IMG/VR virus record: IMGVR_UViG_3300025030_000401
Span: 1-24,627 of that record
DNA length: 24,627 bases
Strand: one strand, 5' to 3'
DNA from: a virus
How positions within the stretch are numbered: position 1 is the stretch's first letter; each line of letters starts with the position of its first letter. Of the stretch, positions 1 through 21,400 are shown piece by piece. The position numbers and the translations under genes are program-made. The notes beneath the pieces were generated by a model that saw only the letters and a list, made by a program, of their open reading frames with translations, made no database searches and was not told the origin of the DNA.

Positions 1-663
1 TCAACCTCGACCAGTTCAACCACTACCAGTTCGTCAACTTCTACCACCCAGTCAACTTCTACCTCATCAACCACAACATCCAGTTCGACTTCAACTACTA
101 CCAGTAGTTCAACTTCTACCACCCAGTCAACCTCGACTAGTTCAACCACAACATCCAGTTCAACCTCTACCACCCAGTCAACTTCTACCAGTTCAACTAC
201 GATTTCCAGTTCAACCTCTACCACCCAGTCAACTTCTACCAGTTCAACTACAACAAGTAGTTCAACCTCAACAACTATATCTACTTCAACTAGTTCAACT
301 ACTACTAGTTCGTCAACTTCTACAACCCAATCAACTTCAACCAGTTCAACTACTACCAGTAGTTCAACCTCTACCACTCAGTCAACCTCAACCAGTTCAA
401 CTACTACCAGTAGTTCAATCTCTACCACTCAGTCAACCTCAACCAGTTCAACTACTACTTCAAGTTCAACTTCATTTACTACTAGCAGTTCAACTTCTAC
501 AACCCAATCTATTTCAACCTCATCAACCACAACTTCCAGTTCAACCTCAATAACCCAATCTACTTCAACTTCGACAACCCAGTCTGTAACCACCTCAACA
601 TCCTCAACTACTACCAGCAGTTCAACTTCTACAACGATATCAACCTCAACAACTACTACTCTT
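1..663 (+). repeat. Ser/Thr block 1 (51-bp protein-level repeat)
   Basis: Roughly eleven 17-residue units, mostly with Q at position 17. Codons vary from unit to unit (tca/tct/tcg/agt and act/aca/acc/acg), so the protein repeat is more regular than the DNA repeat. It ends in T-T-T-T-L at 649-663. Its 5' boundary lies outside the window. Confidence 0.95.
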
Positions 664-1038
664 AATTCTTTGTCTGGAGGATTATCTTTTGGCGAAGAAA
701 ATCCCAATCAGGGAGAATCAGCTATTAGTTGGCAAACATGGTCTGATGGTTCTGGGGGAATACCAACAATAGTTGGGAATCAAGATTGGGGAAAAATAGA
801 TATTGATTTAAGTGAAGAAGGTAGGAGTCAAGTTTATGATTTTAGTAATATAGAATTAAGATTGATCATTCTAACAGAGAATAGGTATGAATCAGGACAA
901 GGAATTGCTACTTTGCAATATAGGACTTCTGATTCAATATTTAATCAAGATGATATTAATCCTTCTTGGAATAATTATTCAGATCAATTTTTAACTGTTT
1001 TTAGATATATGCAAATAAGGATTATTAAAGAATTATAA
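1..1038 (+). CDS. Ser/Thr-repeat virion-type protein, 5' end outside window
   Basis: The frame is open from base 1, so the N-terminus is missing; 345 residues are visible. About 221 of them (bases 1-663) are almost pure Ser/Thr, built on a 17-residue unit STSTSSTTTSSSTSTTQ with Q as the usual 17th residue, and closing with TTTTL. A C-terminal domain of about 124 residues follows (N-S-L-S-G-G to I-I-K-E-L). It is rich in beta-type sequence, with aromatic residues and the motif QDWGKIDIDL. I do not recognise this domain. It may be a small beta-sandwich of the kind found at phage fibre tips, which is inference. The gene ends four bases before the next ATG, so the two are probably co-transcribed. 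A TTG at 670 could start the C-terminal domain alone, but no SD precedes it and the repeat is in frame, so one continuous protein is more likely. Confidence 0.85.
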   Translation, partial: STSTSSTTTSSSTSTTQSTSTSSTTTSSSTSTTTSSSTSTTQSTSTSSTTTSSSTSTTQSTSTSSTTISSSTSTTQSTSTSSTTTSSSTSTTISTSTSSTTTSSSTSTTQSTSTSSTTTSSSTSTTQSTSTSSTTTSSSISTTQSTSTSSTTTSSSTSFTTSSSTSTTQSISTSSTTTSSSTSITQSTSTSTTQSVTTSTSSTTTSSSTSTTISTSTTTTLNSLSGGLSFGEENPNQGESAISWQTWSDGSGGIPTIVGNQDWGKIDIDLSEEGRSQVYDFSNIELRLIILTENRYESGQGIATLQYRTSDSIFNQDDINPSWNNYSDQFLTVFRYMQIRIIKEL

Positions 1039-1042
1039 AAAA

Positions 1043-4000
1043 ATGGCAACTTTAGCTTCCGATAATTTTAACAGAGATGATAGTGTAACTCTTGGTGTAA
1101 ATTGGACTGATGATAATGTTGGATTTGGAATTGTATCTAATAAAGTTATAGGAGTTACAGATGGGGATCAATCCTATTGGTCAGGTACTTTCAATCCTGC
1201 TTCTGCTGACTATGATGTCACCGTTACCCTTCATCACACAGGTACAGTTAGTGAATTGGCTTTCTTTGGTAGGAGAACTGCTTCTAATACTTTCTACTGG
1301 GTGGCCATGAATACTTTTACCCAGACTATAAAACTTTATAAGCGGGTAGGGGGATCGGATACAGAATTAGGCAGTTTTTCAGGAGGATATTCAGTTAATA
1401 ATACTTATACTTTCAGGCTCAACATGGTCGGTTCCATTCTTAAAGTCTATGAGGGAGTAACTGAAAGAATAAGTGTTTCGGATTCAGCTATTACTGATAT
1501 CGGTAAACCAGGTTTACTGGCTACCTCACCAAACGGTAGTTGTGACTGGGATGACTTTTTAGTTGAAGGAACAGAAGCTACAATAACTACTTCAACTACT
1601 ACTTCTGTTTCTACTTCAACCTCAACTTCGACCTCATCAACGACAATTTCTACCAGCTCTACTACTATTTCAACCAGTTCAACTACAACTTCCAGTTCTA
1701 TCTCATCAACCACAACATCAAGTTCAACAACAACAACTCTTTCAATCCAAGCTCAATTCTTAGGAGTTGATATCATGTCTTTAACTAAAGATCTTCTTGA
1801 CAATCCTGCCAGCCAAACTCAAACAGATGCTTTAATTAATTCTATTGCTAGTGATTTTTCTACCATAACTCATATTGGAATATCTATTCCAATGAATACA
1901 AATGCAGAGGCATTGGCTGAAAGAGGTAGTAATTTCAGTATAGAACCAGCAACTTATGCAGCACAATTTACCGATAAAATCCACGCGGTTGGTAAAAAAG
2001 TATTATGGCGGGGAACAGACTGTTTTTTTGAAGGGATATATAATTTTACCAAAGTCGGTAAAAGAAACGGTAATAGATTTACTTATCTGGTCACCGATAT
2101 TACTGATAATTTTTCTTCAACTGAAGTACGAAACCACGGTTATGGATTAAGCAGTTCTGCTGGTAATCTTTCCAGTAATTATCTAACTAGTCATCAATCG
2201 GGGAATGATTGGACAATTGTTACGGGTGAATTAACTGGACCAGCAAGTAATGGTTGGTTAAGAACCTGTTTATTTAATGCCAGCGGTTTAAGAGATGTTG
2301 TAATGGTTGCCAAAGTAAAGAAAGTCGGCAACCAGCAGATAATTTGTCGGGCATCAACAGATTCCAATTTCCCTGGTTATGGATTGCAAATAAGAGATAC
2401 CAATATCTTGCGTCTTGAAAGACCAGGATTGGAAAATCTAGGTGAAACAGCCAAAACTTGGGTTGAGGGTAATTATTATTGGTTAAAACTGGAATGTGTT
2501 GGAACAACTATTAGAGGTAAAGCTTGGGCGGTTGGAGATAGTGAACCAGGAAGTTGGGATTTATCAATTACTAATTCTTCTTACAGTTACGGTTTTTGCG
2601 GATTTTCAGGAGAATCATCAACAGGCTTATTTGATGATATGACTATTACGCCAGCCCAAGATACTGATACTTGGCTTTATCGGGCGGTTAATTGGATAAA
2701 TACCAATATTTCTTTATTTGAAACTAATGATATTATTGCTCCTTATCCAGAAGCTTCTTCCCATCAATCTTTAACTAATCAGGGAACCTATAATGATTTT
2801 TTTGTTGATCTTAAATACTGTTTGGATCAAATTTGTAGCAATAACAACATAACTTGTTATAATGGTTTTTCTTCACATATTTGGACTTCAGTTATTCAGG
2901 GAGCGATTAGTGGCAGTATTTTCAGTATTCCTCAAGTAGCTTCTTTTGACCATTATGGTACAGGTTTAGGGCTTAATAAAAGATTTACTTCATTTTCCCA
3001 TGGATCATCAGGAGCAAGTAATACTTATACCGTACCAACATCCATAACTGAAAATATTACCAACCGACACGATTTTATTCCTGAAAAAGTATCTTATAAC
3101 AAAGAAATTGATATCTATATTGTTAATAAAGGAACTGGTGATTGGACCATGATAGTTCATAAAGCCAATAACGATCCAGTTCAGATGCCTAATCCACAGG
3201 ATTTAACCGATTTGGATAATAGTTATCAGGTAACTATAGCTAATGCTAATTTAACCAATGGAGCCTTAAATACCTTTGCTATTGATTGGGACAATCCTGA
3301 CACTGATGTAACTTACCATTTCCATCTGACTTCAACAGTTACTGATGGTACGGTTAAAACGACTACTTTAAATGATCTAAATACTTTATATTGTGCTGGT
3401 TATAAGCATAATGCCAGACCTGAAGCTTTAGAGATTGATTTAAGGAAAACTTATAATGTAACAGGTCAACCGCTTTATCTTCAAGAATGGGGAGATTATT
3501 GGTCAACTGATGCTTCGCGGTCAGATCCTGTTAGGACAGAGATTGAGCATGAATCTTATCTTGACTCTATTTATGCTGTTTTACAAAGACTGATTAATGA
3601 AGATATATTAGTTGGTTTTAACTATTGGCGGGTTTTGGGCGGTGAAGAAGCTGTCATGTATGATGCTGATCCAACCGCTGGCTATGATTATCAAATGTTG
3701 TATGAAGGAGAACGCTTACAAGCTTTTTTCAATAATAATCAAGTAACAACTACATCAACAACAACATCTAGTTCTACTTCTACTTCAACTAGTTCAACTA
3801 CGACATCTAGTTCAACTTCAATTACTACTAGTAGTTCAACTTCTACAACTCAGTCAACCTCGACTAGTTCAACTACTACATCGAGTTCAACCTCTACCAC
3901 CAAATCAACCTCAACTAGTTCAACTACTACATCCAGTTCTATTTCAACTTCAACTTCAAGTACAACTACTAGCAATTCAACCTCAACTAGTTCAACTACA

Positions 4001-5359
4001 ACTAGTAGTTCTACCAGTATTAGTCAATCAACTTCAACAACGATTTCTACTTCGACTTCGACATCTAGTACAACTACTTCCAGTTCTATTTCAACTTCAA
4101 CTTCGACTTCATCTACAACTATCAGTAGTTCAACCTCAACTAGTTTAACAATTAGTACAACTACAACGCTTTTAGTCAATTATCAGGCTGGAGATATAAT
4201 TATTGAATGGGTTCAACTAACCACTTCAACTACTACCAGCAGTTCAACTTCTACATCTACTTCATCTACAACAACTAGTTCATCTATTTCAACCTCAACT
4301 AGTTCAACTACAACCAGCAGTTCCACCAGTATCAGTCAGTCAACTTCAACAACAATATCTACTTCATCCACAACAACTAGTAGTTCAACTTCAACAACTT
4401 ATTCAACCAGTACGACCAGTTCAACCACAACATCTAGTTCGATTTCAACTACTACCAGCAGTTCAACTTCTACCACCCAGTCAACCTCGACCAGTTCAAC
4501 TACGACAAGCAGTTCAACTTCAACTACAACCAGTACTACAACCACTTTAGCTTGTACGGAAATAATTGATCAATCACAAACAACAGGAACAACTCTTGCA
4601 GGATTTGGAGAGTTTAATGTAACCAGATATCGCGGTCAGGGTTTTATTCCCTCTTTAGGCCGTTTAACAGCTATTGAGATAAATTTAACTTTAAAAGGAT
4701 TAAAGGGATTAAAAGTTTATATTGATACGGCTGATTCAGATTCCATTCCTGATCATTCTCCAGGTTCAGAAATAGCTTCTTTTGTAATAACCAATGCTGA
4801 TTTAAGTATAGGAATGACTAAGTATACATTCCCTTCTGAAATTAATGTTACCAATGGTAGTCAATATGTTGTTTATTTTGCTCCATGGAATACCGATACG
4901 GATACTTATGATGATGATTACCGTGATTTAACTTGGCATAATTCAAATATTTATTCCAGTGGAAAACCAATTGTTAATAATGGCGGTACATGGAGTATTT
5001 CTAATAATGGTAATCTGGATTTGAAATTCCAGATTTATGGATGTGAGGAATCAGGTACAACTACTTCAACTACTACTTCCAGTTCAACTTCTACCAGTTC
5101 GACTACTACTAGTAGTTCAACTTCAACAACGATAACCATATCGACTACAACTTCTATATCTACTTCTACCAGTTCAACTACTACAAGTAGTTCAACTTCT
5201 ATAACGATATCAACTTCAACAACAATGTCAACTTCAACAACGACTACTTTGGCTTATGTGTTATACCGAACCCGAAAAGGAAGTATGATTATCCATAATA
5301 GATATCCTGTGGCTCAAAATAAGCCTTATGAAGAAAAAGAGTCGGTTGTAGATCCATAG
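1043..5359 (+). CDS. Multidomain lectin-like / glycoside-hydrolase-like / Ser-Thr-repeat fibre protein
   Basis: 1438 residues. Domains in order: a concanavalin-like beta-sandwich (1-179; DNF near the start, WDDF near the end); Ser/Thr block (180-233); a probable TIM-barrel glycoside hydrolase (about 234-901) interrupted by a second DNF...FDD beta-sandwich (about 355-540); Ser/Thr blocks 902-1043 and 1060-1169 with a short spacer between; a carbohydrate-binding-like beta domain (1170-1338); Ser/Thr block 1339-1403; and a 35-residue tail. Hydrolase candidates are Glu570 (PYPEAS) and Glu815 (YLQEWGDYW), resembling acid/base and nucleophile positions of clan GH-A enzymes; this assignment is inference. 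The likely role is binding and trimming host or environmental glycans. The ATG has no good SD and lies four bases after the previous stop, so coupled translation is possible. The 1-179 domain is about 80% identical by eye to the start of the gene at 18435. Confidence 0.85.
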   Translation: MATLASDNFNRDDSVTLGVNWTDDNVGFGIVSNKVIGVTDGDQSYWSGTFNPASADYDVTVTLHHTGTVSELAFFGRRTASNTFYWVAMNTFTQTIKLYKRVGGSDTELGSFSGGYSVNNTYTFRLNMVGSILKVYEGVTERISVSDSAITDIGKPGLLATSPNGSCDWDDFLVEGTEATITTSTTTSVSTSTSTSTSSTTISTSSTTISTSSTTTSSSISSTTTSSSTTTTLSIQAQFLGVDIMSLTKDLLDNPASQTQTDALINSIASDFSTITHIGISIPMNTNAEALAERGSNFSIEPATYAAQFTDKIHAVGKKVLWRGTDCFFEGIYNFTKVGKRNGNRFTYLVTDITDNFSSTEVRNHGYGLSSSAGNLSSNYLTSHQSGNDWTIVTGELTGPASNGWLRTCLFNASGLRDVVMVAKVKKVGNQQIICRASTDSNFPGYGLQIRDTNILRLERPGLENLGETAKTWVEGNYYWLKLECVGTTIRGKAWAVGDSEPGSWDLSITNSSYSYGFCGFSGESSTGLFDDMTITPAQDTDTWLYRAVNWINTNISLFETNDIIAPYPEASSHQSLTNQGTYNDFFVDLKYCLDQICSNNNITCYNGFSSHIWTSVIQGAISGSIFSIPQVASFDHYGTGLGLNKRFTSFSHGSSGASNTYTVPTSITENITNRHDFIPEKVSYNKEIDIYIVNKGTGDWTMIVHKANNDPVQMPNPQDLTDLDNSYQVTIANANLTNGALNTFAIDWDNPDTDVTYHFHLTSTVTDGTVKTTTLNDLNTLYCAGYKHNARPEALEIDLRKTYNVTGQPLYLQEWGDYWSTDASRSDPVRTEIEHESYLDSIYAVLQRLINEDILVGFNYWRVLGGEEAVMYDADPTAGYDYQMLYEGERLQAFFNNNQVTTTSTTTSSSTSTSTSSTTTSSSTSITTSSSTSTTQSTSTSSTTTSSSTSTTKSTSTSSTTTSSSISTSTSSTTTSNSTSTSSTTTSSSTSISQSTSTTISTSTSTSSTTTSSSISTSTSTSSTTISSSTSTSLTISTTTTLLVNYQAGDIIIEWVQLTTSTTTSSSTSTSTSSTTTSSSISTSTSSTTTSSSTSISQSTSTTISTSSTTTSSSTSTTYSTSTTSSTTTSSSISTTTSSSTSTTQSTSTSSTTTSSSTSTTTSTTTTLACTEIIDQSQTTGTTLAGFGEFNVTRYRGQGFIPSLGRLTAIEINLTLKGLKGLKVYIDTADSDSIPDHSPGSEIASFVITNADLSIGMTKYTFPSEINVTNGSQYVVYFAPWNTDTDTYDDDYRDLTWHNSNIYSSGKPIVNNGGTWSISNNGNLDLKFQIYGCEESGTTTSTTTSSSTSTSSTTTSSSTSTTITISTTTSISTSTSSTTTSSSTSITISTSTTMSTSTTTTLAYVLYRTRKGSMIIHNRYPVAQNKPYEEKESVVDP
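1580..1741 (+). repeat. Ser/Thr block 2
   Basis: 54-residue Ser/Thr linker joining the N-terminal lectin-like domain to the hydrolase-like domain. It is irregular, with short TTISTSS units and no Q or K, and is capped by TTTTL. Confidence 0.95.
3746..4171 (+). repeat. Ser/Thr block 3
   Basis: 142-residue block after the hydrolase-like domain. It mixes 17-residue units ending in Q or K with shortened variants (for example STSISQSTST) and is capped by TTTTL. A 16-residue non-repeat spacer (L-V-N-Y-Q to W-V-Q-L) separates it from the next block. Confidence 0.95.
4220..4549 (+). repeat. Ser/Thr block 4
   Basis: 110-residue block with mixed unit lengths, including one Y at the variable position (STSTTYST). 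It is capped by TTTTL directly before the C-terminal beta domain. Confidence 0.95.
5057..5251 (+). repeat. Ser/Thr block 5
   Basis: 65-residue block with I or M in place of Q/K at some variable positions. It is capped by TTTTL and followed by a basic 35-residue C-terminus. Confidence 0.95.
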
Positions 5360-5380: not shown

Positions 5381-5860
5381 ATGAAAAAAATTGAATTAAC
5401 TCAAAATAGAGTTGCTTTGGTTGATGATAAAGATTTTGAATATTTAAGTCAATACAAATGGTGTTTTAATTCAAATGGATATGCAGTTACAAATGAATCA
5501 TTTATGGGTAAAAGAAAGTTATTTCTTATGCATAGATTGATTTTAGGAGCCTTGAGTGAAGATAAAATTCAAAGAGTTGATCATAAAGATATGAATAAAC
5601 TCAATAATCAAAAAATAAATTTAAGATTTGCCGATAAAAGTCAAAATGCAGCAAATAGATTAATTAACAAAAATAATATTTCAGGCTATAAAGGTGTTTC
5701 TTGGAATAAAAGAGACAAAAGATGGCAAGCAAAAATTGGTATAAATGGAAAACAGCTTTATTTAGGAGAATTTAAAGATCCTATTAAAGCTGCTAAGAAA
5801 TATGATTTTACAGCCTTAAAATACTTTGGTAAATTTGCCAGAATTAATTTTAGTTCTTGA
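5381..5860 (+). CDS. Free-standing HNH-AP2 homing endonuclease
   Basis: 159 residues. The N-terminal half carries an HNH nuclease core: H51 in LMHRLILG, then V-D-H-K-D at 66-70 and N76. The C-terminal half (about 100-157) is an AP2-type DNA-binding domain, recognisable from SGYKGVSWNK, the RWQAKI strand, LYLGEF and the helix DPIKAAKKYDFTALKYFG. This pairing is a well-known architecture of mobile phage homing endonucleases, which cut an allele lacking the gene and spread by repair. No intron or intein signals flank it; it lies between two complete genes, so it is free-standing. No SD precedes the ATG and a -10-like TATAAT lies just upstream, so it may be expressed separately from the late operon. 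The stop codon overlaps the -35 of the next promoter candidate. Confidence 0.9.
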   Translation: MKKIELTQNRVALVDDKDFEYLSQYKWCFNSNGYAVTNESFMGKRKLFLMHRLILGALSEDKIQRVDHKDMNKLNNQKINLRFADKSQNAANRLINKNNISGYKGVSWNKRDKRWQAKIGINGKQLYLGEFKDPIKAAKKYDFTALKYFGKFARINFSS

Positions 5861-5919: not shown

Positions 5920-5949
5920 ATCCACTAGCGAAAGCTGGTGGATTTTTTT
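5920..5949 (+). terminator. Intrinsic terminator-like hairpin abutting a start codon
   Basis: Ten-base stem ATCCACTAGC / GCTGGTGGAT with one G-U pair and a GAAA tetraloop (5930-5933), followed by a T-run that ends exactly at the ATG at 5950. The only SD-like sequence for that gene, GGTGG at 5937-5941, is inside the 3' arm. The hairpin could therefore stop transcription, hide the ribosome site, or both. Confidence 0.75.
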
Positions 5950-6903
5950 ATGCCAATATATCAATATCAGGAAGAATATTCAGGTGCAGGTAGAACAGCT
6001 ACGGTAACGCGTGAGGGTAAAGTCCGTGTTGATGCTGGTCCGGCTTTTAAAGAAGACGTACAAACTGGAACTGGAAATATAAACTATACTACTAATATTG
6101 ATGGTCCTTTCAGGCTTAATCATATTTCTGTCAAATTCAGTGGTACTCCGACAGCATCTTTTAATACTACTTTAATTTCAAGATTAGGAGTTGCATATAA
6201 TGTTTCTTTGGATACTTCAGGAGCTTTTTCAGCAGGAGATACAGGTCATGTTTTTATTCCAGCCCAAGATTTATGGTTCGCCCAAGGAGATGAACTTAAT
6301 GTTTCCTGTCTTGGTGGAGCTGGATTAACTTATGGATTAAGAATAATTTATGCTTTGTCTGGAGAAACAACTACTACTTCTACTTCGACTACTACGAGTT
6401 CCACCACAACATCATCTTCTACAACAATTACTACTTCAACCAGTACCAGTAGTTCAACTACAATTTCAACTTCTACAACAACTTCAACTAGTTCAACTAC
6501 AACTAGTAGTTCAACAACTCAATCAACTTCAACTAGTTCGACAACAACATCAAGTTCGACAACTGAATCAACTTCAAGTTCAAGTTCTACTTCTACGACT
6601 GAATCAACTTCAACTTCAACTTCAACTAGCTCAACTACAACATCGAGTTCAACCAGTACGACTGAATCAACTTCAACTTCAACTAGCTCAACTACAACAT
6701 CAAGTTCAACCAGTACGACTGAATCAACTTCAACTTCAACTTCAACCAGCTCAACGACTACATCGAGTTCAACCAGTACTACTGAATCAACTTCAACTTC
6801 AACTTCAACAAGTTCAACTACGACCAGTAGTTCTACATCTCAGTCGACAACCACATCAACCTCAACAAGTCAATCAACAAGTACTAGTACGACTTTAGGA
6901 TAA
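5950..6903 (+). CDS. Small beta-domain protein with long Ser/Thr tail (possible head fibre or decoration protein)
   Basis: 317 residues from ATG 5950 (MPIYQYQEEY). A GTG at 5938 is in frame but lies in the hairpin stem and has no ribosome site, so it was not chosen. Residues 1-137 look like a compact beta-sandwich (many alternating hydrophobic strands, FIPAQDLWFAQGDELNVSC, Y-G-L-R-I-I-Y-A-L at the end). Residues 140 to the end are a mucin-like Ser/Thr tail whose variable position is mostly E. The protein stops right after the repeat, so the tail would project freely. I do not recognise a family. Its position just before the prohead protease suggests a head-associated protein such as a head fibre or capsid decoration, which is inference. 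A terminator-like hairpin directly precedes it, so expression probably needs read-through. Confidence 0.75.
   Translation: MPIYQYQEEYSGAGRTATVTREGKVRVDAGPAFKEDVQTGTGNINYTTNIDGPFRLNHISVKFSGTPTASFNTTLISRLGVAYNVSLDTSGAFSAGDTGHVFIPAQDLWFAQGDELNVSCLGGAGLTYGLRIIYALSGETTTTSTSTTTSSTTTSSSTTITTSTSTSSSTTISTSTTTSTSSTTTSSSTTQSTSTSSTTTSSSTTESTSSSSSTSTTESTSTSTSTSSTTTSSSTSTTESTSTSTSSTTTSSSTSTTESTSTSTSTSSTTTSSSTSTTESTSTSTSTSSTTTSSSTSQSTTTSTSTSQSTSTSTTLG
6367..6897 (+). repeat. Ser/Thr block 6 (E-type)
   Basis: 177 residues forming the C-terminal tail of the 5950 gene. Units read STSTSSTTTSSSTSTTE and longer STST variants; the variable residue is E in the regular units and Q near the ends. The cap is shortened to STTL followed by Gly and stop. 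The other blocks use Q or K, so this protein has an acidic version. Confidence 0.95.
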
Positions 6904-6912
6904 TGTTATAAT
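6904..6912 (+). promoter_or_regulatory. Extended -10 promoter candidate before the prohead protease
   Basis: TGTTATAAT is a good extended -10 element with no convincing -35. The start would fall about nine bases before ATG 6928. The core TATAATATTAT is also found just before the HNH gene at 5369. Such AT-rich strings arise easily by chance here, so confidence is low. Confidence 0.3.
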
Positions 6913-6927
6913 ATTATTAAAATAATT

Positions 6928-8019
6928 ATGGATGACATAAAAATATTCGTAGGATTTACTAAAAAGGATAATGAAAAAAGAGAAGTTCATGGTTATGCTT
7001 CTTCGGAAACCCTTGATAGTCAAGGTGAGGTTGTAGAAAAAGAAGCCATTATTAAAGCTTTACCTGGATATTTGGGTGATCCTGATCCTGAAACTGGTAA
7101 ATTTAGATTTGGTGGATTAAGGGAAATGCACCAGCCAAGCGCAGTTGGTAAGACAGTTCATGCAAAAGTAGATAATAAAGGATTGTTTATTAAAGGAAAA
7201 GTTGTTGATAAAGATGCTTGGGAAAAAGTAAAAGAAGGAGTTTATACTGGATTTTCAATTGGAGGTAAAGTATTGGAACAGGTTAAAAATAGGATAAAGG
7301 CCATAAAATTAAGCGAAATATCTTTAGTTGATAGACCAGCTAATCCTGATGCGTTATTTAGCATGGTTAAGATTGATGATAAAGGTAAGATAACTGAAGG
7401 ACAAGTTGATAAAAATATGATAATCTCACCAATGACTGAATCTTCTGGAATGGACCCGATTAATACAGCTGGATTTATTTTGAGTTTAGCTAAAGATATC
7501 AGATATTTATTATATTCTTTTGAACAGGAAGGTAAATCATTAGTTGAACTTAATAAAGTTCTGGATTTATTAAAAAAACTAGCGGTTAAAGTATTATCTG
7601 AAGAGGATAAAAAGAAATTCGATAATATTTTATATGGAATGGACAATGAGGAATTAATGAAAGGAACTTTAGATGAGTTTGAAAAGAAAAAGCTTAAATC
7701 CAAAGAGAGGGAAGCTATGGCATCTGGTCAGTTTGCTTATGTGGATTCCAAAGGTGGTAAACATTTGCCCATTTCGGACAAGGCTCATGTTCAAAATGCT
7801 ATGGCTAGATTCAATCAGACTCACTTTGAAAGTTCAGAAAAGAAGAAAAGTGCAGCTAGGAAAATTCTAGCCGCAGCCAAAAGACTTAATATGGAGATTG
7901 ATTCTAAATCAGCTGTAGTCAGCGCGGCTAAACTGGATGAAGATTTTGACATTAAGAAATTTGTAGATTATAATTGGACTCCTGGTTATTTTGAAAATAT
8001 GAGAAAGGTTTTAGGATAA
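6928..8019 (+). CDS. Prohead maturation protease (XkdF-like S78 type) with C-terminal DUF6582-like domain
   Basis: 363 residues. The N-terminal 150 residues match the XkdF/prohead protease pattern: HGYASSETLDSQGEVV, the candidate catalytic His68 in REMHQPSAVGKTV, candidate Ser110 in YTGFSIGG, and the SEISLVDRPANPDALF segment at 129-144. The enzyme cleaves scaffold and capsid precursors inside the immature head. The middle is helical. The C-terminal stretch from about 265 (SGQFAYVDSKGGKHLPI, then HVQNAMARFNQTHF and KKSAARKILAAAKRLN) resembles DUF6582, a small helical domain common in phage head proteins. It is followed by a scaffold-like gene and the capsid gene, the standard order. No strong SD precedes ATG 6928. 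Confidence 0.88.
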   Translation: MDDIKIFVGFTKKDNEKREVHGYASSETLDSQGEVVEKEAIIKALPGYLGDPDPETGKFRFGGLREMHQPSAVGKTVHAKVDNKGLFIKGKVVDKDAWEKVKEGVYTGFSIGGKVLEQVKNRIKAIKLSEISLVDRPANPDALFSMVKIDDKGKITEGQVDKNMIISPMTESSGMDPINTAGFILSLAKDIRYLLYSFEQEGKSLVELNKVLDLLKKLAVKVLSEEDKKKFDNILYGMDNEELMKGTLDEFEKKKLKSKEREAMASGQFAYVDSKGGKHLPISDKAHVQNAMARFNQTHFESSEKKKSAARKILAAAKRLNMEIDSKSAVVSAAKLDEDFDIKKFVDYNWTPGYFENMRKVLG

Positions 8020-8020
8020 A

Positions 8021-8167
8021 ATGCCTTATACATTTGATAAAGATAAAAAACAACCAGAAAAAATACCGGTAACTGAAGATAAACCGAAAATTGAAGTTCC
8101 TAAAACTCCAGAACCCCCAAAAGTTCCCGAAGGTAATGTGATTATTAGTGGTGCAATACAGATTTAA
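8021..8167 (+). CDS. Small Pro/Lys-rich protein of unknown function
   Basis: 48 residues, MPYTFDKDKKQPEKI to NVIISGAIQI. The ATG lies one base after the protease stop, and AGGA (8013-8016) at the end of the protease gene serves as an SD. Charged residues and prolines dominate the middle (KPKIEVPKTPEPPKVPEG), ending in a short hydrophobic tail. No family is recognised. The tight spacing and SD support translation; the short length keeps confidence moderate. It could be a small head accessory or scaffold-associated peptide. Confidence 0.5.
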   Translation: MPYTFDKDKKQPEKIPVTEDKPKIEVPKTPEPPKVPEGNVIISGAIQI

Positions 8168-8170
8168 ACT

Positions 8171-8190
8171 TTGTTTACGCGCGTAAACAA
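8171..8190 (+). promoter_or_regulatory. 20-bp perfect palindrome (operator candidate)
   Basis: TTGTTTACGCGCGTAAACAA is its own reverse complement over all 20 bases, with a CpG-rich centre in an AT-rich region. It lies between two tiny ORFs, about 150 bases before the promoter at 8324. It lacks a T-run, so it is not an intrinsic terminator. A dimeric regulator site is the simplest reading, but no regulator gene is in the window. Confidence 0.55.
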
Positions 8191-8200
8191 TTCGTGAAAA

Positions 8201-8317
8201 ATGCCAGTGGAAACCGTAGAAACCTATAAAATAACTCCACCAACACAATCCATATTTTCTGCTTCCAGCTCAAAAAAAGGTAAAGGTAAATCAGTAAAGT
8301 CAAAAGGTAAGAAGTAG
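8201..8317 (+). CDS. Tiny Lys-rich protein of unknown function
   Basis: 38 residues, MPVETVETYKITPPTQSIF then ASSSKKGKGKSVKSKGKK. The C-terminal half is strongly basic with seven Gly/Ser-spaced lysines or lysine pairs, as in nucleic-acid-binding tails. No family is recognised. Only a weak ribosome site (GTGAAAA) precedes the ATG. It sits between the palindrome and the next promoter. It may be a small head protein or a chance ORF. Confidence 0.4.
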   Translation: MPVETVETYKITPPTQSIFSASSSKKGKGKSVKSKGKK

Positions 8318-8323
8318 TACTGC

Positions 8324-8433: not shown

Positions 8434-8447
8434 GAAAGGAAATATAG

Positions 8448-12672: not shown

Positions 12673-13638
12673 ATTGGAATAGATATAGGGCGTACAGGTA
12701 GTTTAGGAATTGCAATAGAAGCCAGTGCTGGCAGTGCCAACACTACCATGTCTGCCTATTTACCATATTCAGATATTTCTCTTCGTGGTCATCACGAAGC
12801 AATTGAAGATATTTCATCCAGAACATCAAGAATCATGGATTCCGATTCGGTTATCGGCAAAAGATGGACTGAAGGAGATGTAGAAATAAATGCTGATATA
12901 GTTAATTCTGGATATTTATGGAAATTGGCTTTGGGTGGTGAATTATTAGTTACAGGTACACCTAATAACCATACTTTTTATCTATATACAACCGTATCAG
13001 GTAATACTCCATTAACAGCAACTTTAATCCAAACCAGAGCTAATACAACTGATATTGAACAGTATACTTATGCCGCAATAGATGAGCTAACCTTTGAAGT
13101 TTCAGATGGCCTTGCAACCCTCAATGCTTCTTTTCAGGCTCAATTTCCTGTGGCTGGAGCTGCTCAAACAGTAACAACTACATCAGGAACAGTATTGGCT
13201 TTCAAGGATTATTTTGTCCAATTTGGAGCAACTCTGACAGCAGCTGGAACAGCAGCAACTACACCAATTAATGAATTCAGTCTGACAATTGCCAATAATC
13301 TGGAAGTTATTCACAGAAGCGGCAGTTCAGATGTTTCAATAATCAGAACTAAAGGAGTCAGAGTAACTGGTTCTTATACGCTTTTCTTTGATTCAGTAAC
13401 TGATAGGGATGCTTATTATGCTTTGCAGAAAAGGTCCATGATCTTAACTGCGTCAGGAATACTTAACGAATCACTGAGAATCAGGATTCCTGAATTCAGG
13501 TTGAGTGAAGCTGACATATCAACAGGACTTGATGATTTCTATACCATCACAGCAGAATTTGTGGCTGAAGACGATGTAGACTCAGGGGTACGTTTAATGG
13601 ATTGTCGTTTACAAAATGGTAAGAGTACATCATATTAG
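12673..13638 (+). CDS. Major tail tube protein, probable ATT start
   Basis: 321 residues if started at ATT 12673; 296 if started at ATG 12748. The codons from 12673 read I/M-G-I-D-I-G-R-T-G-S-L-G-I-A-I-E-A-S-A-G-S-A, which looks like the conserved N-terminus of phage tail tube proteins (a Gly-rich strand followed by E-A-x-A-G). The strong SD lies just before it and there is none before ATG 12748. The rest is beta-rich with D-I-S-L-R-G-H-H-E-A-I-E-D, the TFEVSDGLATLNASFQAQF strand pair and VRVTGSYTLFFDS, in keeping with stacked hexamer rings forming the tail tube. Position between tail terminator and assembly chaperones is canonical. A sequencing error removing an ATG is the alternative. Confidence 0.82.
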   Translation: MGIDIGRTGSLGIAIEASAGSANTTMSAYLPYSDISLRGHHEAIEDISSRTSRIMDSDSVIGKRWTEGDVEINADIVNSGYLWKLALGGELLVTGTPNNHTFYLYTTVSGNTPLTATLIQTRANTTDIEQYTYAAIDELTFEVSDGLATLNASFQAQFPVAGAAQTVTTTSGTVLAFKDYFVQFGATLTAAGTAATTPINEFSLTIANNLEVIHRSGSSDVSIIRTKGVRVTGSYTLFFDSVTDRDAYYALQKRSMILTASGILNESLRIRIPEFRLSEADISTGLDDFYTITAEFVAEDDVDSGVRLMDCRLQNGKSTSY

Positions 13639-13660
13639 CCGAATTAATAAATTAAGAAAT

Positions 13661-13671
13661 AAAGGAGGTGA
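13661..13671 (+). promoter_or_regulatory. Perfect SD for the tail assembly chaperone
   Basis: AAAGGAGGTGA is a full complement of the 16S rRNA 3' end, four bases from ATG 13675. It is the strongest ribosome site in the window. Confidence 0.8.
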
Positions 13672-13674
13672 AAA

Positions 13675-14037
13675 ATGTTAGATAAAACTGGCATACCAAC
13701 AGTAGATCATGTATTGCCAAATGGAGACACTGTTGTCTTATACAAATTCCTGACAACAGGAGAGGCTAGGGAACTCCAGAAAATGATGTTGGCGGAAAGC
13801 AAGTATGATATTACATCTGGAAAGATGGAAAATGTCAATGTGGCTACTTTCCTCAAATATCAGGATCAGTCTGCAAATGCCTTGATTAAGGAAATAAAAT
13901 TAAAAGATGGAACTATCAAGCCATTCCAACAGGAGTGGCTTGATTCTTTACCAATAGAAGAAGGCAATAAAGTCTATGATTTGGTAAATGAGATTACTCA
14001 AGGTTCTTGGGTTAAAAAAGAGGAAAAAAAAAATTAA
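13675..14037 (+). CDS. Tail assembly chaperone, short form (G-like)
   Basis: 120 residues. Position between tail tube and tape measure, size, and a C-terminus built on Lys/Glu runs over an A-rich slip site identify it as the G-type chaperone that coats the tape measure during tail assembly. The sequence starts L-D-K-T-G-I-P-T-V, has a beta part (GDTVVLYKFLTTGEARELQ) and a helical part (ALIKEIKLKDGT, P-F-Q-Q-E-W-L). In frame 0 it stops at TAA 14035 just after the A10 run. A fraction of ribosomes or transcripts probably slip there to make a longer G-T fusion. Confidence 0.78.
   Translation: MLDKTGIPTVDHVLPNGDTVVLYKFLTTGEARELQKMMLAESKYDITSGKMENVNVATFLKYQDQSANALIKEIKLKDGTIKPFQQEWLDSLPIEEGNKVYDLVNEITQGSWVKKEEKKN
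14024..14033 (+). other. A10 slippery site for G-T frameshift
   Basis: Ten A's, read GAA AAA AAA AAT in the G frame, contain the heptamer A AAA AAA (14025-14031). A -1 slip enters the T frame and joins about 119 G residues to 77 T residues (about 196 in total). The in-frame stop follows four bases later. A10 could also cause RNA polymerase slippage, so the mechanism is open. Confidence 0.7.
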
Positions 14038-14264
14038 TAAAAGCAGTTTGGAGAGGACTGGCGGGTGAAGAAATCAGGTCTGAAGAATATATCAGATACT
14101 TGGTTTGTAAAGACATGCATTGGGATTATTATACCTATGAGTCCCAACCTGCTTTCTTTATAGAAGAAGTATTAACTATTATGAATCTGGAGGGTCAGAA
14201 ATCAAAGAAAGATACTAAGGATTTAGAAAGAAAAAGTAAATCTATGAGTAGGAAAAGGAGATAA
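14034..14264 (+). CDS. Tail assembly chaperone, T part of the G-T fusion (made by -1 frameshift)
   Basis: An open -1 frame of 76 residues (L-I-K-A-V-W-R-G-L-A-G-E-E to S-R-K-R-R) without a start codon or SD of its own. It runs from the slip site to one base before the tape measure GTG. The sequence E-E-Y-I-R-Y-L-V, D-M-H-W-D-Y-Y-T-Y-E-S-Q-P and F-F-I-E-E-V-L is typical of T domains, in which the segment with W/Y-rich motifs recruits tail tube subunits. The basic C-terminus is also typical. The first in-frame ATG is at 14115, too late to encode the whole domain, so a frameshift is the most sensible route. Confidence 0.72.
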   Translation, partial: LIKAVWRGLAGEEIRSEEYIRYLVCKDMHWDYYTYESQPAFFIEEVLTIMNLEGQKSKKDTKDLERKSKSMSRKRR

Positions 14265-14265
14265 A

Positions 14266-17200
14266 GTGGCAGAAAAAGAAGTAAAAATTGTCGTTACAGC
14301 TGAAGATAGAGCTACACCAGTAATTTCGAGAGTAGCTAGTGGAGTCAAAGGTGCGGTTGACTCCATGCGATCCAGTATTAAAAGCTGGATTAATGATACT
14401 GCTTTGGCTTCTGCTGCTTTTACTGCTCTTTTTACCAAAGTAGCCAAAGGTGCTATTGATACGGCAGCTGACTTTGAAAAAGCGGGTATCATGACCCGTT
14501 TTCTAACTGATAATACTGAAGCTGCCAATAAATATTCTCAAGCTTTAATAGATCTTGCTCTTACTACTCCTTTTACCACCAAAGAAATAACCACTTTGGG
14601 TTCGCGGATGATCGGCCAGGTTAAAGATGTAGATATTAGCGTTCTGGGAATGAAAGCTTTAACCAATGCTGTTTCAGCAACTGGTGGTGGCATTATGGAA
14701 TTGGAAAACTCCCAAAGAGCCTTAACCCAAACTTTCATTAAAGCCAAACCTTCTTTGGAAGAATTAAACAAACAATTCAATAATGCCAATATTCCCGTTA
14801 TGCGGGCATTATCCAAACATTTGGCTGATGGAACAGTAAAACTTAAAGGATATACGGATGCGGTGGTAGTAACTGGCGGAGCATCAAAAAAGTTAGCTGG
14901 AGATGCGACTAAGGCAGGAGAAGTTATTGAAGATTCAGCTTTCAAAACGGATAAGTTAACGGCTGCCATGAATAAGGCTAAGAATAAGTTTGGTGAAAGC
15001 AGCTATCAATTCAAGGAAGCCAAAGATAAATTAGGAGACTGGAATGAAAAAGTAGCTGGTGCTCAAGGAACAATCGAAAAATATAATTCAGCTTTGGGTA
15101 GTACCACCAAAACAATAAGCGGATTCCATAAGACCCAGGAACAGATAATGGCTGATCTTCAGGATGTGGCTAATTTGGGTGTTACTGGCAAGGATACGGC
15201 TGTGGCTATTATGGAAGCTCTAGCTTTGGAATACGCGGGAGCCAATGAAACAATGCTAAACAGCTTTTCTGGTTTAACCAGAAATATTGTAGACCAAATA
15301 CAGGTTGTTTCTGCATCTATTATGGGAATTGATAAAAACTTAAATGTTCGGGAAGGAAGTATTTTTTATTATCTTAAATTGGGAGCTAAGTCATTATCAG
15401 AATTCCTGGCAGCCCACAGATATGATATAGCTGATTTTGTTGACTCTCTTCTTAAAAATAAAGTGGCAATGATGAGCATAGCAACGATTATTGTTAGTAT
15501 GATGATTCCTGCTTTTGTTAAATTAAATAAGTTTTTGGGATTAACTAAACTTCTTTTGGGTGGACTAACATTAACTCCTTTTGTCCTCATTATGGCTGGA
15601 GCTATCAGTCTTCTTCTTGCAAATACAGATCGTATCCAACGGATAAAAGACAAAATGGCGTTTGGAACAACAGAAACCGGAAATGTCCATGCAACCTGGC
15701 AACAAGCATTAAAAGGAATCGCTATCAGAATTGAAAACCTTGTTGATTCTCCCCAAATGCAACGAATTAAAGACAAACTGGCTTTCGGTACAACTGATAC
15801 TGGAACAATACATGCAACCTGGCAACAGGCTCTTGAGGGAATAAAAATAAGAGTTCAAAATTTTTCCGAAAATTATATAGGACCACTTATTCAGAGAATG
15901 AAAAATAATTTATATTGGAGTATTACAGATACTGTTAAAGCTGATACTACTTGGATGGATATTTTGGAAGGAATAAAAGACAGGATTAACCGATATGTGG
16001 GAATTATAGGCCAGAAAATCCAAGAGATGAAAAATATGTTTGTCTTTGGCGAAATAGCCCCGCCAATTCCAGCAACTTGGATGAATGTTTTAGAGAAAGT
16101 AAAAATCTTATTAGAACAAGTCAAACAAAAACTGTCCGAATTAAAAGCAAAAGCCAAATCGGAAATAGACAGTATAATTCAATTCTGGAATGAACATAGA
16201 GAGGCTATTACAAAAACAGCCCAGGCAATTACAGTATTTTTTCTCCCTGCTATTATAGCTTTAGGTATTGCAATGGCGACTAATGCTATTCGGGCTGCTA
16301 TTACACTTACTTTGCAATTTATTGCTATGAAAAATGCAGCAGCCCAAGCTGCCTTTACTGGAATCGGCCAATTAATATACCAAACTATCCAGTTTGGTAT
16401 ACAAGGATGGAAAACTATTGTTGTATTAGCTGCCCAAGCTGTTGCTTGGACAACCAGTACTCTTCTGAAAACTGCAAATGCTGTAGCAACTGGATCATTA
16501 ACTATAGCAACTGTAGCTCAAGCTATAGCTACAGGTGTATTAACAGCTGCTACATGGCTTCTTAATACCGCCCTTTCAATCTTATTTGCTCCTTTAACAA
16601 TAATAATTGTGGCTATAACTACTATTATTGCTATCTTTTTACAATGGGCTGGACTATTGGATAATGTAATTGGAGGATTAAGAGGATTACTTAGTTCTAT
16701 TTTTGGGTTAAATCCACAACTTGATTTATATAGACAAAATTTAGATTTATCTAAGAGTTCAACAGATAGTTTAGCTGCGGCTACTGATATTCTTACAGGT
16801 GCACATGATAGGGCAACAGATGCTAATTTGGAGTTACGAGGAGCGCAATTAGGAGTAGACAACGCACAAAGAATGGTAACTGATGCGTTAAATACATATG
16901 GAGAAAATAGTCCACAATATAGAGATAATGTCCATAATTTAGATTTGGCTAATAGAAGATTAGAAAAAGCTGAAGAAGGTGTTGAAGGTGCACAAAGAGA
17001 TATAATGAAAGCTCAAGATGATTATGCCAAAGATGTAAAAGAGAAAGCAGTACCAACAGTTACTTTTTTTAATAGATACTTAGATAGTCATAAAAGTAAA
17101 TGGCAAGAATTGGCAGATGCAATAAATAGTGTTATTAGTAATATTTTGAGATGGACTGGATTAAAAGGGCAACATGGAGCTTCTGGACAATGGCAACATG

Positions 17201-17442
17201 GAGGTATCGTTCCTGGTCCAATAGGTCAACCAATGCCAGCTATTGTCCATGGAGGTGAAAGAATAACACCAAGAGGAGGAGTAGATGAATCTGCTAAATC
17301 AATGGGGGGGGATGGAATAACAATAAATATTAATGGTTCAGTAACTATGGATAGTGAAGAACGGGTTCGGGAATTGGCAAGATTGATTATGAGAATGCTC
17401 GGAAGAGAAAGTGAGTTAAGCCGCTACGGAGTCGGTTATTGA
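14266..17442 (+). CDS. Tape measure protein
   Basis: 1058 residues, the longest protein of the tail core, placed after the chaperone pair as in all siphophages. The N-terminus (VKIVVTAEDRATPVISRVA) and the C-terminus with GGIVPGPIGQPMPAIVHGGE, followed by ITININGSVTM and a final helix, are characteristic. It has strongly hydrophobic segments at about 400-450, 645-680 and 770-800, fitting DNA ejection through the cell membrane. Four imperfect repeats of about 43 residues start near residues 457, 498, 542 and 585 (QRIKDK, F-G-T-T, A-T-W-Q-Q-A-L). A helical, likely coiled-coil part lies at about 830-930. It starts at GTG 14266 with AAAAGGAG just upstream, one base after the T-frame stop. The protein sets tail length. 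Confidence 0.9.
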   Translation: MAEKEVKIVVTAEDRATPVISRVASGVKGAVDSMRSSIKSWINDTALASAAFTALFTKVAKGAIDTAADFEKAGIMTRFLTDNTEAANKYSQALIDLALTTPFTTKEITTLGSRMIGQVKDVDISVLGMKALTNAVSATGGGIMELENSQRALTQTFIKAKPSLEELNKQFNNANIPVMRALSKHLADGTVKLKGYTDAVVVTGGASKKLAGDATKAGEVIEDSAFKTDKLTAAMNKAKNKFGESSYQFKEAKDKLGDWNEKVAGAQGTIEKYNSALGSTTKTISGFHKTQEQIMADLQDVANLGVTGKDTAVAIMEALALEYAGANETMLNSFSGLTRNIVDQIQVVSASIMGIDKNLNVREGSIFYYLKLGAKSLSEFLAAHRYDIADFVDSLLKNKVAMMSIATIIVSMMIPAFVKLNKFLGLTKLLLGGLTLTPFVLIMAGAISLLLANTDRIQRIKDKMAFGTTETGNVHATWQQALKGIAIRIENLVDSPQMQRIKDKLAFGTTDTGTIHATWQQALEGIKIRVQNFSENYIGPLIQRMKNNLYWSITDTVKADTTWMDILEGIKDRINRYVGIIGQKIQEMKNMFVFGEIAPPIPATWMNVLEKVKILLEQVKQKLSELKAKAKSEIDSIIQFWNEHREAITKTAQAITVFFLPAIIALGIAMATNAIRAAITLTLQFIAMKNAAAQAAFTGIGQLIYQTIQFGIQGWKTIVVLAAQAVAWTTSTLLKTANAVATGSLTIATVAQAIATGVLTAATWLLNTALSILFAPLTIIIVAITTIIAIFLQWAGLLDNVIGGLRGLLSSIFGLNPQLDLYRQNLDLSKSSTDSLAAATDILTGAHDRATDANLELRGAQLGVDNAQRMVTDALNTYGENSPQYRDNVHNLDLANRRLEKAEEGVEGAQRDIMKAQDDYAKDVKEKAVPTVTFFNRYLDSHKSKWQELADAINSVISNILRWTGLKGQHGASGQWQHGGIVPGPIGQPMPAIVHGGERITPRGGVDESAKSMGGDGITININGSVTMDSEERVRELARLIMRMLGRESELSRYGVGY
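15631..16140 (+). repeat. Four tandem ~43-residue repeats within the tape measure
   Basis: Copies begin at IQRIKDKMAFGTT (about 15634), MQRIKDKLAFGTT (15757), IQRMKNNLYWSIT (15889) and IQEMKNMFVFGEI (16018). Each contains x-A-T-W-x-x-x-L-x-G-I or a close match (A-D-T-T-W, P-A-T-W). Copies 1 and 2 are most alike and copies 3 and 4 have drifted. Copy number would translate directly into tail length. Confidence 0.8.
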
Positions 17443-17488
17443 TAGCATTGTGACACTCTAAACTATGATTATTAACCTAAAATAAAAT

Positions 17489-18373
17489 ATGGCAATAACA
17501 TTTGACGCTTTTAGTCTACAAGACAGCAACTACATAATCACGGATACTGAGTATAGGACAATCCCCTCGCGGGAAATTACTCTGGAATCAATTGCCAGAA
17601 AGCCTGGTAAGAAATTTTTGGCTGAGGAATTTGGTGAAAGAAGAATCAGGTTATCTGGATTCATTGAAGGATCTTCTGCTTCTGATCTGATTACCAAAAT
17701 AGACGATCTTCATACCAATGTTACCCGTAAAAAAATAGGCACTTTATCAATTGATGCAGACCGCGATATCCAGACTTTGGTAGTTTTAGTTGCTATAGCT
17801 GAACCGCATTACAGCCAAACCATAGTTCCCATGTCTCTGGAATTTGTAGCTGCCGAACCTTTCTATCAGGGTGCTCAACGAGTAGCTGTTACAGCAATAG
17901 CTGAAGGAACAGCTTCAGCCACCATTACTACCACAATTTCTGGTTCTGTTTTTACCGAACCAATAATTACTTATACGCCCAAAGGCGGTGGGAGTAATAC
18001 TAATATTTACAGGATTGATATAAGTTATGATCAAACTGGAGAAGAAGTTACTTGGTCAGGCGGTAATCATCCTTTAAGTAATGCGGATTCAGTAGCCTTT
18101 GATTATTCTAACCAGATTATAACTGAAGGAAATAGTGAAATTGAAGCCAGTGGAGTATTTGCCAGATTTGAACCAGGATCAACAAATTTAACAGTTACTT
18201 ATTACAGTACTTCCACTTCTTCAACAACAACATCTACTTCTTCAACAACAAGATCAACATCAACAACTCATACTGGAACTACTACTTCAACAACCAGATC
18301 TACCTCAACTTCTACAACTACAACTTTAGCTAGTCCAACAATAACGATTACTTACAGACCAAGATATCTATAA
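17489..18373 (+). CDS. Distal tail protein (Dit-like) with Ser/Thr insert
   Basis: 294 residues. The N-terminal 130 residues match the Dit pattern: F-D-A-F-S-L-Q-D, IPSREITLESIARKPGK, GERRIRLSGFIEGSSASDL, K-I-G-T-L-S-I-D and P-M-S-L-E-F-V-A-A-E-P-F-Y. Dit rings join the tail tube to the tip. The second half is a beta-sandwich (galectin-like arm) ending FEPGSTNLTVTYY, then 41 residues of Ser/Thr repeat, then T-I-T-I-T-Y-R-P-R-Y-L. The strands on the two sides of the insert (LTVTYY and ITITYR) look alike, so the insert splits or duplicates the last strand. No SD precedes ATG 17489; 46 bases separate it from the tape measure. Confidence 0.8.
   Translation: MAITFDAFSLQDSNYIITDTEYRTIPSREITLESIARKPGKKFLAEEFGERRIRLSGFIEGSSASDLITKIDDLHTNVTRKKIGTLSIDADRDIQTLVVLVAIAEPHYSQTIVPMSLEFVAAEPFYQGAQRVAVTAIAEGTASATITTTISGSVFTEPIITYTPKGGGSNTNIYRIDISYDQTGEEVTWSGGNHPLSNADSVAFDYSNQIITEGNSEIEASGVFARFEPGSTNLTVTYYSTSTSSTTTSTSSTTRSTSTTHTGTTTSTTRSTSTSTTTTLASPTITITYRPRYL
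18206..18328 (+). repeat. Ser/Thr block 7 (in the Dit-like protein)
   Basis: 41 residues, with R at some variable positions (TTRSTSTT) and one H-T-G break, capped by TTTTL. It is the only block that sits within a core baseplate protein. Confidence 0.92.
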
Positions 18374-18434
18374 AAATATGTATGATAACTTCTATCAACT
18401 CCATTTTTAAAATTTTTTCTAAAGAAATAAATCT

Positions 18435-21400
18435 ATGGCAACCTTAGCTTCTGATAATTTTGATCGGGGTGATAGCGGTAATTTAGGTGCTAATTGGACT
18501 GATGATGATGCAGGTTTTGCAATTGTATCCAATAAAGCTGTAGGAGCTACTGGTGGAGATCAGACTTATTGGTCAGGAACTTTTAACCCCGCTTCAGCTG
18601 ACTACGATGTAACTGTAACTTTACATCATACGGGGGATGTTTCCGAACTCGCCTTTTTTGGTAGACGTACAGCCTCCAATAACTTTTATTGGGTGGCCAT
18701 GAATACTTTTAGTCAGACAATCAAGCTATATAAACGGGTAACGGGTTCAGATACAGAATTAGGAAGCTATACAGGTGGTTATTCAGTTAATAACACTTAC
18801 ACCTTTAGACTTAATATGGTTGGTTCAACCATTAAGGTTTATGAGGGACTTGATCAAAGAATCAGCATAACTGATACAGATATTACTGATATCGGTAAAC
18901 CAGGATTGTTATCTACCTCACCAAATGGTACTTGTGACTGGGATGATTTTCTGGTTGAGGGAACAGAAGCTACTACAACTTCAACCACCGTCTCAACCTC
19001 AACTAGTTCAACTACAACATCGAGTTCAACTACGACATCAAGTTCAACTTCGACAACTCAATCAACCTCAACTTCAATAACTACATCAACCACTACAACA
19101 TTACCACCCAATGAAGGTCGATTATGGTCATGTGGATTTGAGTTGAATAGTTTAACTCCAGGAGTGGAAATTTCATCAATTTTTGCAGGTAGTCCTACAA
19201 TTGTTACTTCTCCAGTCAGAAGTGGAACTTATGCTTTAAATTGTAATACTACTTCAAGTGGAACAGGGTTTAGATATCAATTTTCTGAATCAGAAACTGT
19301 TATTTATGTAAGGTTTTATATTCAATTAGCTTCAGCTCCAGATGGAGAAACACCACTTTTAGATTTAGAAGTTGCGCCTCCTAATTTTACTGGAGTTGAA
19401 GATACAATTCTTTTAGACACCGATAGGACTTTACGATTAAGAGGAATTGGTGATAAAAGTTCAGCCTTATCTTTAAATACTTGGTATAGAGTTGAATTAT
19501 TTTATGATATATCTACTCCTTCTTCCACAGTTATAACTGGAAGACTTAATGGAGTACAATTCAGTACTCAAACATATTCACATGGAACTGCAACTTATGT
19601 AAATCAAATTGTATTAGGTTTACTTGCTCCTGATGTTATTTGTCAGGCATACTTTGACGATATTGCCATTAATATTACAGATTGGCCAGGATCAGGTAGA
19701 ATTGTTCATCTTAAAACAATTAGTAGTACAACTTATGAGTGGACTCATGATGATAATACAGGAGCAGATGTTAATAACTATACCGAGATAAATGAAGTTA
19801 TTCCAGATGATGCTACTTCTTATTTAAAGACTGATATACAAACTTTAGAGGATCAGTTTACAGTTGAAGATTTACCAGTTGAAGCAGAAATAATAAATCT
19901 TGCTTCAATTGGAGTACGTTATAGGGGAGAAGGAGCCTCAGAAAATACTTCTTTTAGTGTTGGTTTGGAAACATCAGAATCTTTTAATGGTAGCGATATT
20001 ATTACACCAGCCAGTACAACTTGGATTACAAATGCGAATATTGTACCCAGAAATTATCCATATACAGTTTATGGAGAAACAGTCTCCAGTATAAATGGGG
20101 CAAATCTATATTTAGACTCTCTATTAGCAGATACAAATAAAGTAAATGTTTCTACTTTATGGCTATTAGTCGATTATACAACAGTTGCTGATTTAACAAC
20201 CACTTCTACTTCAACCACTCAATCAACTTCTACTTCTTCAACTACGACTTCCAGTTCAACCTCGACAACTCAGTCAACTTCTACTTCAATTTCAACCTCA
20301 ACTTCTTCAACCACGACATCAAGTTCAACCTCAACAACTCAGTCAACCTCTACCAGTTCAACTACGACATCAAGTTCAACTTCTACCACCCAGTCAACCT
20401 CAACTAGTTCAACTACTACATCGAGTTCCACTACTAAATCAACATCTACCTCGTCAACTACAACCAGTAGTTCAACTTCTACAACTCAATCTACTTCTAC
20501 CACCAAGTCAACCTCTACCAGTTCAACTACAACGTCCAGTTCAACTTCTACCACCAAGTCAACCTCAACTAGTTCAACTACTACCAGTAGTTCAACTTCT
20601 ACCACAAAATCAACCTCAACTTCTTCAACCACAACATCGAGTTCAACTTCTACCACTCAGTCAACCTCAACCAGTTCAACTACAATATCCAGTTCAACTT
20701 CTACCACCCAGTCAACCTCGACTTCTTCAACCACGATATCGAGTTCAACTTCTACCACCAAGTCAACCTCAACTAGTTCAACTACTACCAGTAGTTCAAC
20801 TTCTACCACAAAATCAACCTCAACTTCTTCAACCACAACATCGAGTTCAACTTCTACCACCAAGTCAACCTCTACCAGTTCAACTACGACTTCCAGTTCA
20901 ACTTCTACTACCAAATCAACCTCAACCAGTTCAACTACTACATCCAGTTCAACCACAATATCAAGTTCAACTTCAACAACCAAATCAACCTCAACCAGTT
21001 CAACTACTACATCGAGTTCAACTTCTACCACTCAATCAACCTCAACTTCTTCAACCACGATATCGAGTTCAACTTCTACCACCAAGTCAACCTCTACCAG
21101 TTCAACTACGACTTCCAGTTCAACTTCGACAACCCAATCAACTTCAACCTCTACATCTTCTACAACTACTAGTAGTTCAACTTCAACAACTACTATTTTA
21201 TCTTTTACTGTAGTAGATATTAGAACTTTTTTGTTAGCCAAATTAAACGCTATTACTACTCTTAAAGCTGCCTTTGATTACCCAACAGGTAATCCTGACG
21301 GCAAATATCCTTTTGCCACTTTGACCTTAAGGGAAGGTGAAGGCAGATTTGGTAGTACGGCTCATAATATCAGGAAAGAAAGTTATGTTATCAAGGTTTA

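Follow-up and report, generated by a model that had tools for sequence, protein, structure and literature searches.

What are long blocks made up almost purely of serine and threonine (S/T) doing in several proteins of one phage? The question is raised by the window studied here, an IMG/VR virus record of 24,627 bases from an uncultured tailed phage whose genome is incomplete. The window contains nine such blocks in five open reading frames (1-1038; 1043-5359, with four blocks; 5938-6903; 17489-18373; 18435-21623, with two), which add up to 3,507 nt, 14.2% of the window and 1,169 amino acids, as the original prediction had it: nine blocks in the same five ORFs, about 3.5 kb or a seventh of the DNA. 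The block residues are 557 T, 526 S and 86 others, with no Ala or Pro anywhere among the 1,169, and the S/T content of the remaining ORFs of the window is 8-23%. The longest block, of 333 residues, is far above the chance expectation. A chance or artefactual origin of the blocks was excluded by the length of the ORFs, by recurrence in independent contigs and homologous genes and by variation that falls mostly at third codon positions. The blocks and the domains that surround them are as follows.

1..660, + strand, block A1, at least 220 aa, the N-terminal part of truncated protein A (1-1038)
661..1038, + strand, C-terminal domain of protein A, 125 aa, no match in family searches
1043..1585, + strand, lectin-like domain 1 of protein B (ORF 1043-5359), 83% identity to 18435-18971
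1586..1738, + strand, block B1, 51 aa
3746..4144, + strand, block B2, 133 aa
4220..4546, + strand, block B3, 109 aa
5057..5248, + strand, block B4, 64 aa
5249..5356, + strand, C-terminal peptide of protein B after its last block, 36 aa, 42% identity to the same position in relative G004
5950..6366, + strand, beta domain of protein C (ORF 5938-6903, likely start ATG 5950), adjoining the protease gene, homologs at 48-74% in relatives G002/G003 and G004
6367..6894, + strand, block C1, 176 aa, the C-terminal tail of protein C
17489..18373, + strand, Dit-like distal tail protein (PF05709 and phrog_202)
18206..18325, + strand, block D1, 40 aa, inside the C-terminal loop of Dit
18435..18971, + strand, lectin-like domain 1 of protein E (ORF 18435-21623), 83% identity to domain 1 of B
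18972..19100, + strand, block E1, 43 aa
19101..20195, + strand, lectin-like domain 2 of protein E (phrog_14065)
20196..21194, + strand, block E2, 333 aa (265 aa in a second assembly)
21195..21623, + strand, C-terminus of protein E, paralog of ORF 12237 at 68% identity

The gene order is protease (6928), capsid (9604), head-tail connectors, tail terminator, tail protein, tape measure (14266), Dit (17489) and Tal-like (21610), with the terminator and capsid identified by gene position. A structural role was likewise assigned to proteins A, B, C and E from gene position only; for Dit and for the Tal-like proteins of relatives there is membership in structural families. Gene order and families thus support the earlier claim that head-module and tail-tip genes both carry blocks; the capsid protein itself has none. 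Two further claims hold with the exception of Dit. The blocks lie between domains or, in protein C, at the C-terminus, but the Dit block is inside a loop rather than at a domain boundary or an end. The common motif is a 17-residue unit, STSTSSTTTSSSTSTT[Q/K], and its core SSTT[T/I]SSS was counted 52 times over eight of the nine blocks, with the unit present in the Dit block only in a degenerate form.

Several other features of these genes can be described here. The peptide of about 36 residues after the last block is conserved in head-module S/T proteins (window 5249-5356; G004:13570-14415) and could possibly be an anchor. An HNH/AP2 homing-endonuclease-like gene lies at 5381-5860 between the S/T genes B and C, and relatives have further HNH-type genes at other sites. 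The protein at the terminator position (12237-12656) has its paralog fused to the end of S/T protein E, the same in both assemblies, and with such a terminator-like C-terminus protein E may hang from a ring. The predicted structures of protein C and lectin-like domain 1 are of low confidence (pLDDT 57), and the fold hits obtained with them, among these the match of the domain 1 model to CBM66, may be taken as leads only; sequence searches of solved structures with three domains gave no match. Homologs of lectin-like domain 2 were found in two G002 proteins, in G006 and in Hiyaavirus 'minor tail' proteins.

The codons of the units tell us something about their history and about what has been maintained. 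The units have codon classes in common, with AGT at position 11 in 48 of 52, and this sharing betrays a descent from common DNA. Variation at third codon positions is about 4x that at first or second positions, and pN/pS is 0.22-0.28 for units chosen by register and not by sequence. Among the single-base amino-acid changes available to the block codons, Ala and Pro together have an expected share of about 38% (transitions weighted 2:1). The low pN/pS, the third-position excess and the absence of Ala and Pro together argue that the S/T content is maintained by selection.

A second assembly of the window phage gives a view of how stable the arrays are. IMGVR 2626541819_000017 overlaps the window at 6603-24627 with near 100% identity and extends about 10 kb beyond it, and its content agrees with GenBank LBWB01000029.1. 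The E2 array in this assembly has 265 rather than 333 residues, four units (68 aa) fewer, so that the arrays either vary in length or collapse on assembly. Short stretches of the capsid and tape-measure genes are also missing from it (window 10479-10604, about 14172-14275 and in the tape measure near 15.6 kb) at about 100% identity elsewhere, which could be assembly error or real variants. LBWB01000029.1 belongs to the bin Candidatus Woesebacteria GW2011_GWB1_39_12. Outside the bin, weak partial matches (E 3e-4 and 1.6e-7) were all that the capsid gave in 57 genomes of the order and 380 of the phylum, and the GT-B glycosyltransferase described below had no match in the searched genomes of that order and phylum. 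The bin is thus weak evidence for the host, since neither protein was convincingly found in other genomes of the phylum.

Relatives of the window phage were found in two ways: a strict DNA pattern search gave three further contigs, and a capsid profile search, which used no S/T criterion, gave nine loci, including four not found before. G002, the nearest of the long relatives, is 94 kb with a capsid at 74%. Related phages with a single isolated linker had been named in advance as evidence against the original prediction; what we see is several relatives with blocks in two to four proteins. The S/T tail of protein C is kept in both distinct homologs found, even as domain identity falls to 48%. 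The Dit C-terminal loop is short (YSGTxxGGTL...YRPRYL) in four of five relatives (G002, G004, G012 and L190), and in L194 56 S/T residues stand where the window has 40. The simplest reading of these alignments would be that the Dit block is a gain in an exposed loop of a structural protein. Some relatives (G483, with 35 kb, L187 and L193) have no block in the DNA seen, which suggests that the S/T trait is both gained and lost. In G483, a protein of 2,583 aa lies between the protease and capsid genes (G483:4910-12661, locus L195). Domains have also been re-joined at blocks, with domain 1 common to B and E and domain 2 common to E and two G002 proteins.

Blocks of this kind also occur in IMG/VR contigs that have no detectable relative of the window capsid. 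Seven proteins of G006 and six of G009 bear blocks, with blocks of 1,128 and 1,079 aa, and the word patterns differ from phage to phage while the composition is alike. The original prediction that a repeat family in this many proteins is particular to the window therefore fails: many unrelated uncultured phages have S/T-only blocks in several proteins, up to seven. These phages also bear on the idea that the blocks are a DNA-level recombination element, serving domain shuffling and array-length change, with the protein sequence a by-product. The common codon classes, the domains re-joined at blocks, the 68-aa difference between assemblies and the block gained by Dit would all fit this idea. 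However, such an element does not predict third positions that are the most variable, nor the same composition built from different words in unrelated phages, and it leaves the enzyme linkage described below unexplained. We consider it the least probable of the explanations, with very little chance of being right, and recombination may well be a side effect of the arrays.

As a check on glycosylation, a search for a glycosyltransferase gene elsewhere in the genome had been suggested. The glycosyltransferase family PF00535 was found above the cut-off in 11 of 15 S/T records against 0 of 26 block-free contigs. The controls were the longer blockless loci from a scan with a shorter DNA pattern, which was unspecific (92 of 121 loci without a block), and contigs with weaker or Pro-containing S/T stretches (e.g. 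L066, L068, L070, L084, L124 and L132) were kept outside the test. PF00535 is missing from four S/T records, each a short structural fragment: the window, its second assembly, G004 and G012. With the count restricted to distinct phages and to contigs no shorter than 20 kb, PF00535 is present in 10 of 11 (Fisher p 3e-8 against the controls), and leaving aside the window's own contig all ten such phages have glycosyltransferase genes. The check is then positive for the relatives and the other S/T phages, and negative for the sequenced part of the window phage, an incomplete genome in which PF00535 and GT-B profiles found none.

In G002 alone, 11 GT2 and two GT-B matches were counted, along with many sugar-modifying genes. 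A 40-kb region around its portal and terminase contains GT2, GT-B, aminotransferase, epimerase and UDP-sugar dehydrogenase-like genes, together with a PIG-L deacetylase, an ATP-grasp enzyme and methyltransferases. One GT2 gene of G002 (L014:360-2486) has an intein containing a LAGLIDADG domain. Comparing whole gene sets, G002 and the structurally unrelated S/T phages have mainly glycan genes in common, the others being HNH-type genes and lectin-like domain 2. Of the genes in common, the best conserved encodes a 434-aa GT-B enzyme of fold family PF00534 with 48-53% identity, whose profile also matches G005, G010 and G014. The residues invariant in this enzyme agree with the R-x4-K and EX7E motifs, which we take to be those of GT4-type enzymes. 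A sequence search of solved structures returned 0 PDB chains at E <= 0.01, no homolog was found among 50,697 phage records, and PHROG gave a weak match only. That the blocks are O-glycosylated through host enzymes and not the phage's own would agree with the sequenced part of the window phage, which is free of glycosyltransferases. The relatives and the unrelated S/T phages encode their own enzymes, however, often beside the acceptor genes, and we regard host enzymes as very improbable.

The search was then turned around. Viral contigs were searched with the GT-B enzyme alone, giving 122 relatives, of which 80 loci were kept. S/T-only blocks are present at 63 of these 80 against 0 of 120 control loci (p = 1.3e-36); some of the 80 represent one virus found in several samples, so not all are independent. 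The controls are viral loci (1.1 Mb) fetched by a thymidylate-synthase-type DNA motif; they are shorter than the enzyme loci, and the contrast persists within length classes. The block nearest to the enzyme is at a median of 838 bp, always on the same strand and upstream in 55 of 63. The 137 blocks at these loci are 98.8% S+T, and 110 of them are at the extreme C-terminus. One family accounts for 87 acceptor proteins, each a small domain with a tail (N-part median about 53 aa), and 18 other single-linkage families also carry blocks. Small domains of about 50-60 aa with an S/T tail are the commonest acceptor type at enzyme loci, and tandem genes for such proteins lie near the enzyme at G009:29263-30146 and G006:28324-29329. 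No block lies in the DNA fetched for the eight loci whose enzymes are closest to that of G002. In G002 the S/T proteins are more than 40 kb from the enzyme. Samples 3300031999 and 3300032731, the sources of two of the eight loci, also yielded capsid relatives that bear S/T blocks, and these may be parts of the same phages.

Ser/Thr-rich linkers occur in many proteins, and the blocks often lie between folded domains, so one could see them simply as unmodified flexible linkers. The glycosyltransferases would then serve phage DNA or the host surface instead, and phage enzymes are known to act on DNA (PMC12619734). But a linker should also accept Gly, Ala and Pro, and these are almost absent here; the 110 of 137 blocks at the enzyme loci that are C-terminal tails have nothing to link; and a same-strand neighbourhood with one enzyme would not be expected. 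This makes the linker explanation unlikely, though it is the strongest of the rivals.

We therefore think it probable that the blocks are self-glycosylated O-glycan acceptor stalks and tails on virion proteins, modified by phage-encoded glycosyltransferases. The extended O-glycosylated stalks originally proposed are thus the best-supported reading by way of the glycosyltransferases of relatives and of other S/T phages, although the window phage's own enzyme was not seen. In such a scheme the first sugar would most likely be added to Ser/Thr in the cytoplasm by the dedicated GT-B enzyme, after which the glycan would be lengthened and decorated by GT2 and sugar-modifying enzymes. Stiffened by dense glycosylation, the blocks would become brush-like rods that keep carbohydrate-binding domains off the head and tail and coat the particle, and rods and tails would be built into head fibres, Dit/Tal and small associated proteins. 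The enzyme that the window phage presumably has would lie outside the part sequenced here. With somewhat less confidence, we favor the broader view of a portable two-part system, made of an S/T-only acceptor (tail, stalk or loop) and a GT-B enzyme usually just downstream of an acceptor gene, that has spread over structurally unrelated uncultured phages (122 contig stretches) and makes a virion glycan brush. If this holds, a glycoprotein coat of the phage's own making, built by a system recognisable from sequence alone, would be present in many uncultured phages, and the large phage glycosyltransferase clusters would have a purpose beyond DNA or host-surface modification. It would also suggest how phages keep adhesins far from the particle or shield it. 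The system could be tested with few genes in a laboratory strain and would provide a defined acceptor-enzyme pair for bacterial O-glycosylation.

Comparison with known systems helps to place these findings. The PTS domains of mucins have a similar density of tandem Ser/Thr, which is the part of the earlier label 'mucin-like' that fits, but the window blocks lack Pro and a secretory context, and the label is a loose one; the blocks are not mucin PTS domains, since Ala and Pro never occur in them. The Hiyaavirus 'minor tail protein' (Streptomyces phages Galactica and Hiyaa) has the same lectin-like domain 2 at 27%, encoded between the capsid and head-tail adaptor genes. There is no S/T array in the Galactica protein, and the 60 kb viewed of that phage's genome contains no annotated glycosyltransferase. 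The serine-rich repeat adhesins of Gram-positive bacteria combine an O-glycosylated Ser/Thr stalk with dedicated GtfA/GtfB and a binding domain (PMC6973325, PMC5207161). The window proteins are similar in having a Ser/Thr repeat stalk with a binding domain, the lectin fold being at low model confidence. Unlike these cell-surface proteins, which use accessory Sec export, they are encoded within phage structural gene clusters, and the phage GT-B enzyme is placed in fold family PF00534, with no detectable sequence match to any solved structure. In the literature searched, with subscription journals mostly outside its scope, we found no description of S/T-only acceptors paired with one enzyme family. 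Closest are the mycobacteriophages, in which, by the accounts given of Freeman et al. 2023 in PMC12619734 and PMC12691614, glycans are found at the C-termini of capsid and tail-tube proteins and the glycosyltransferases are phage-encoded. Glycosyltransferases are also encoded by G002 and all other long S/T contigs tested, but none was found in the incomplete window phage. The mycobacteriophages, in those accounts, modify capsid and tail-tube subunits, whereas here the likely sites are S/T-only tails and stalks on other proteins. Virion glycosylation is thus already known, and the part that appears to be new, as far as the literature searched goes, is the pairing of acceptor and enzyme in unrelated uncultured phages.
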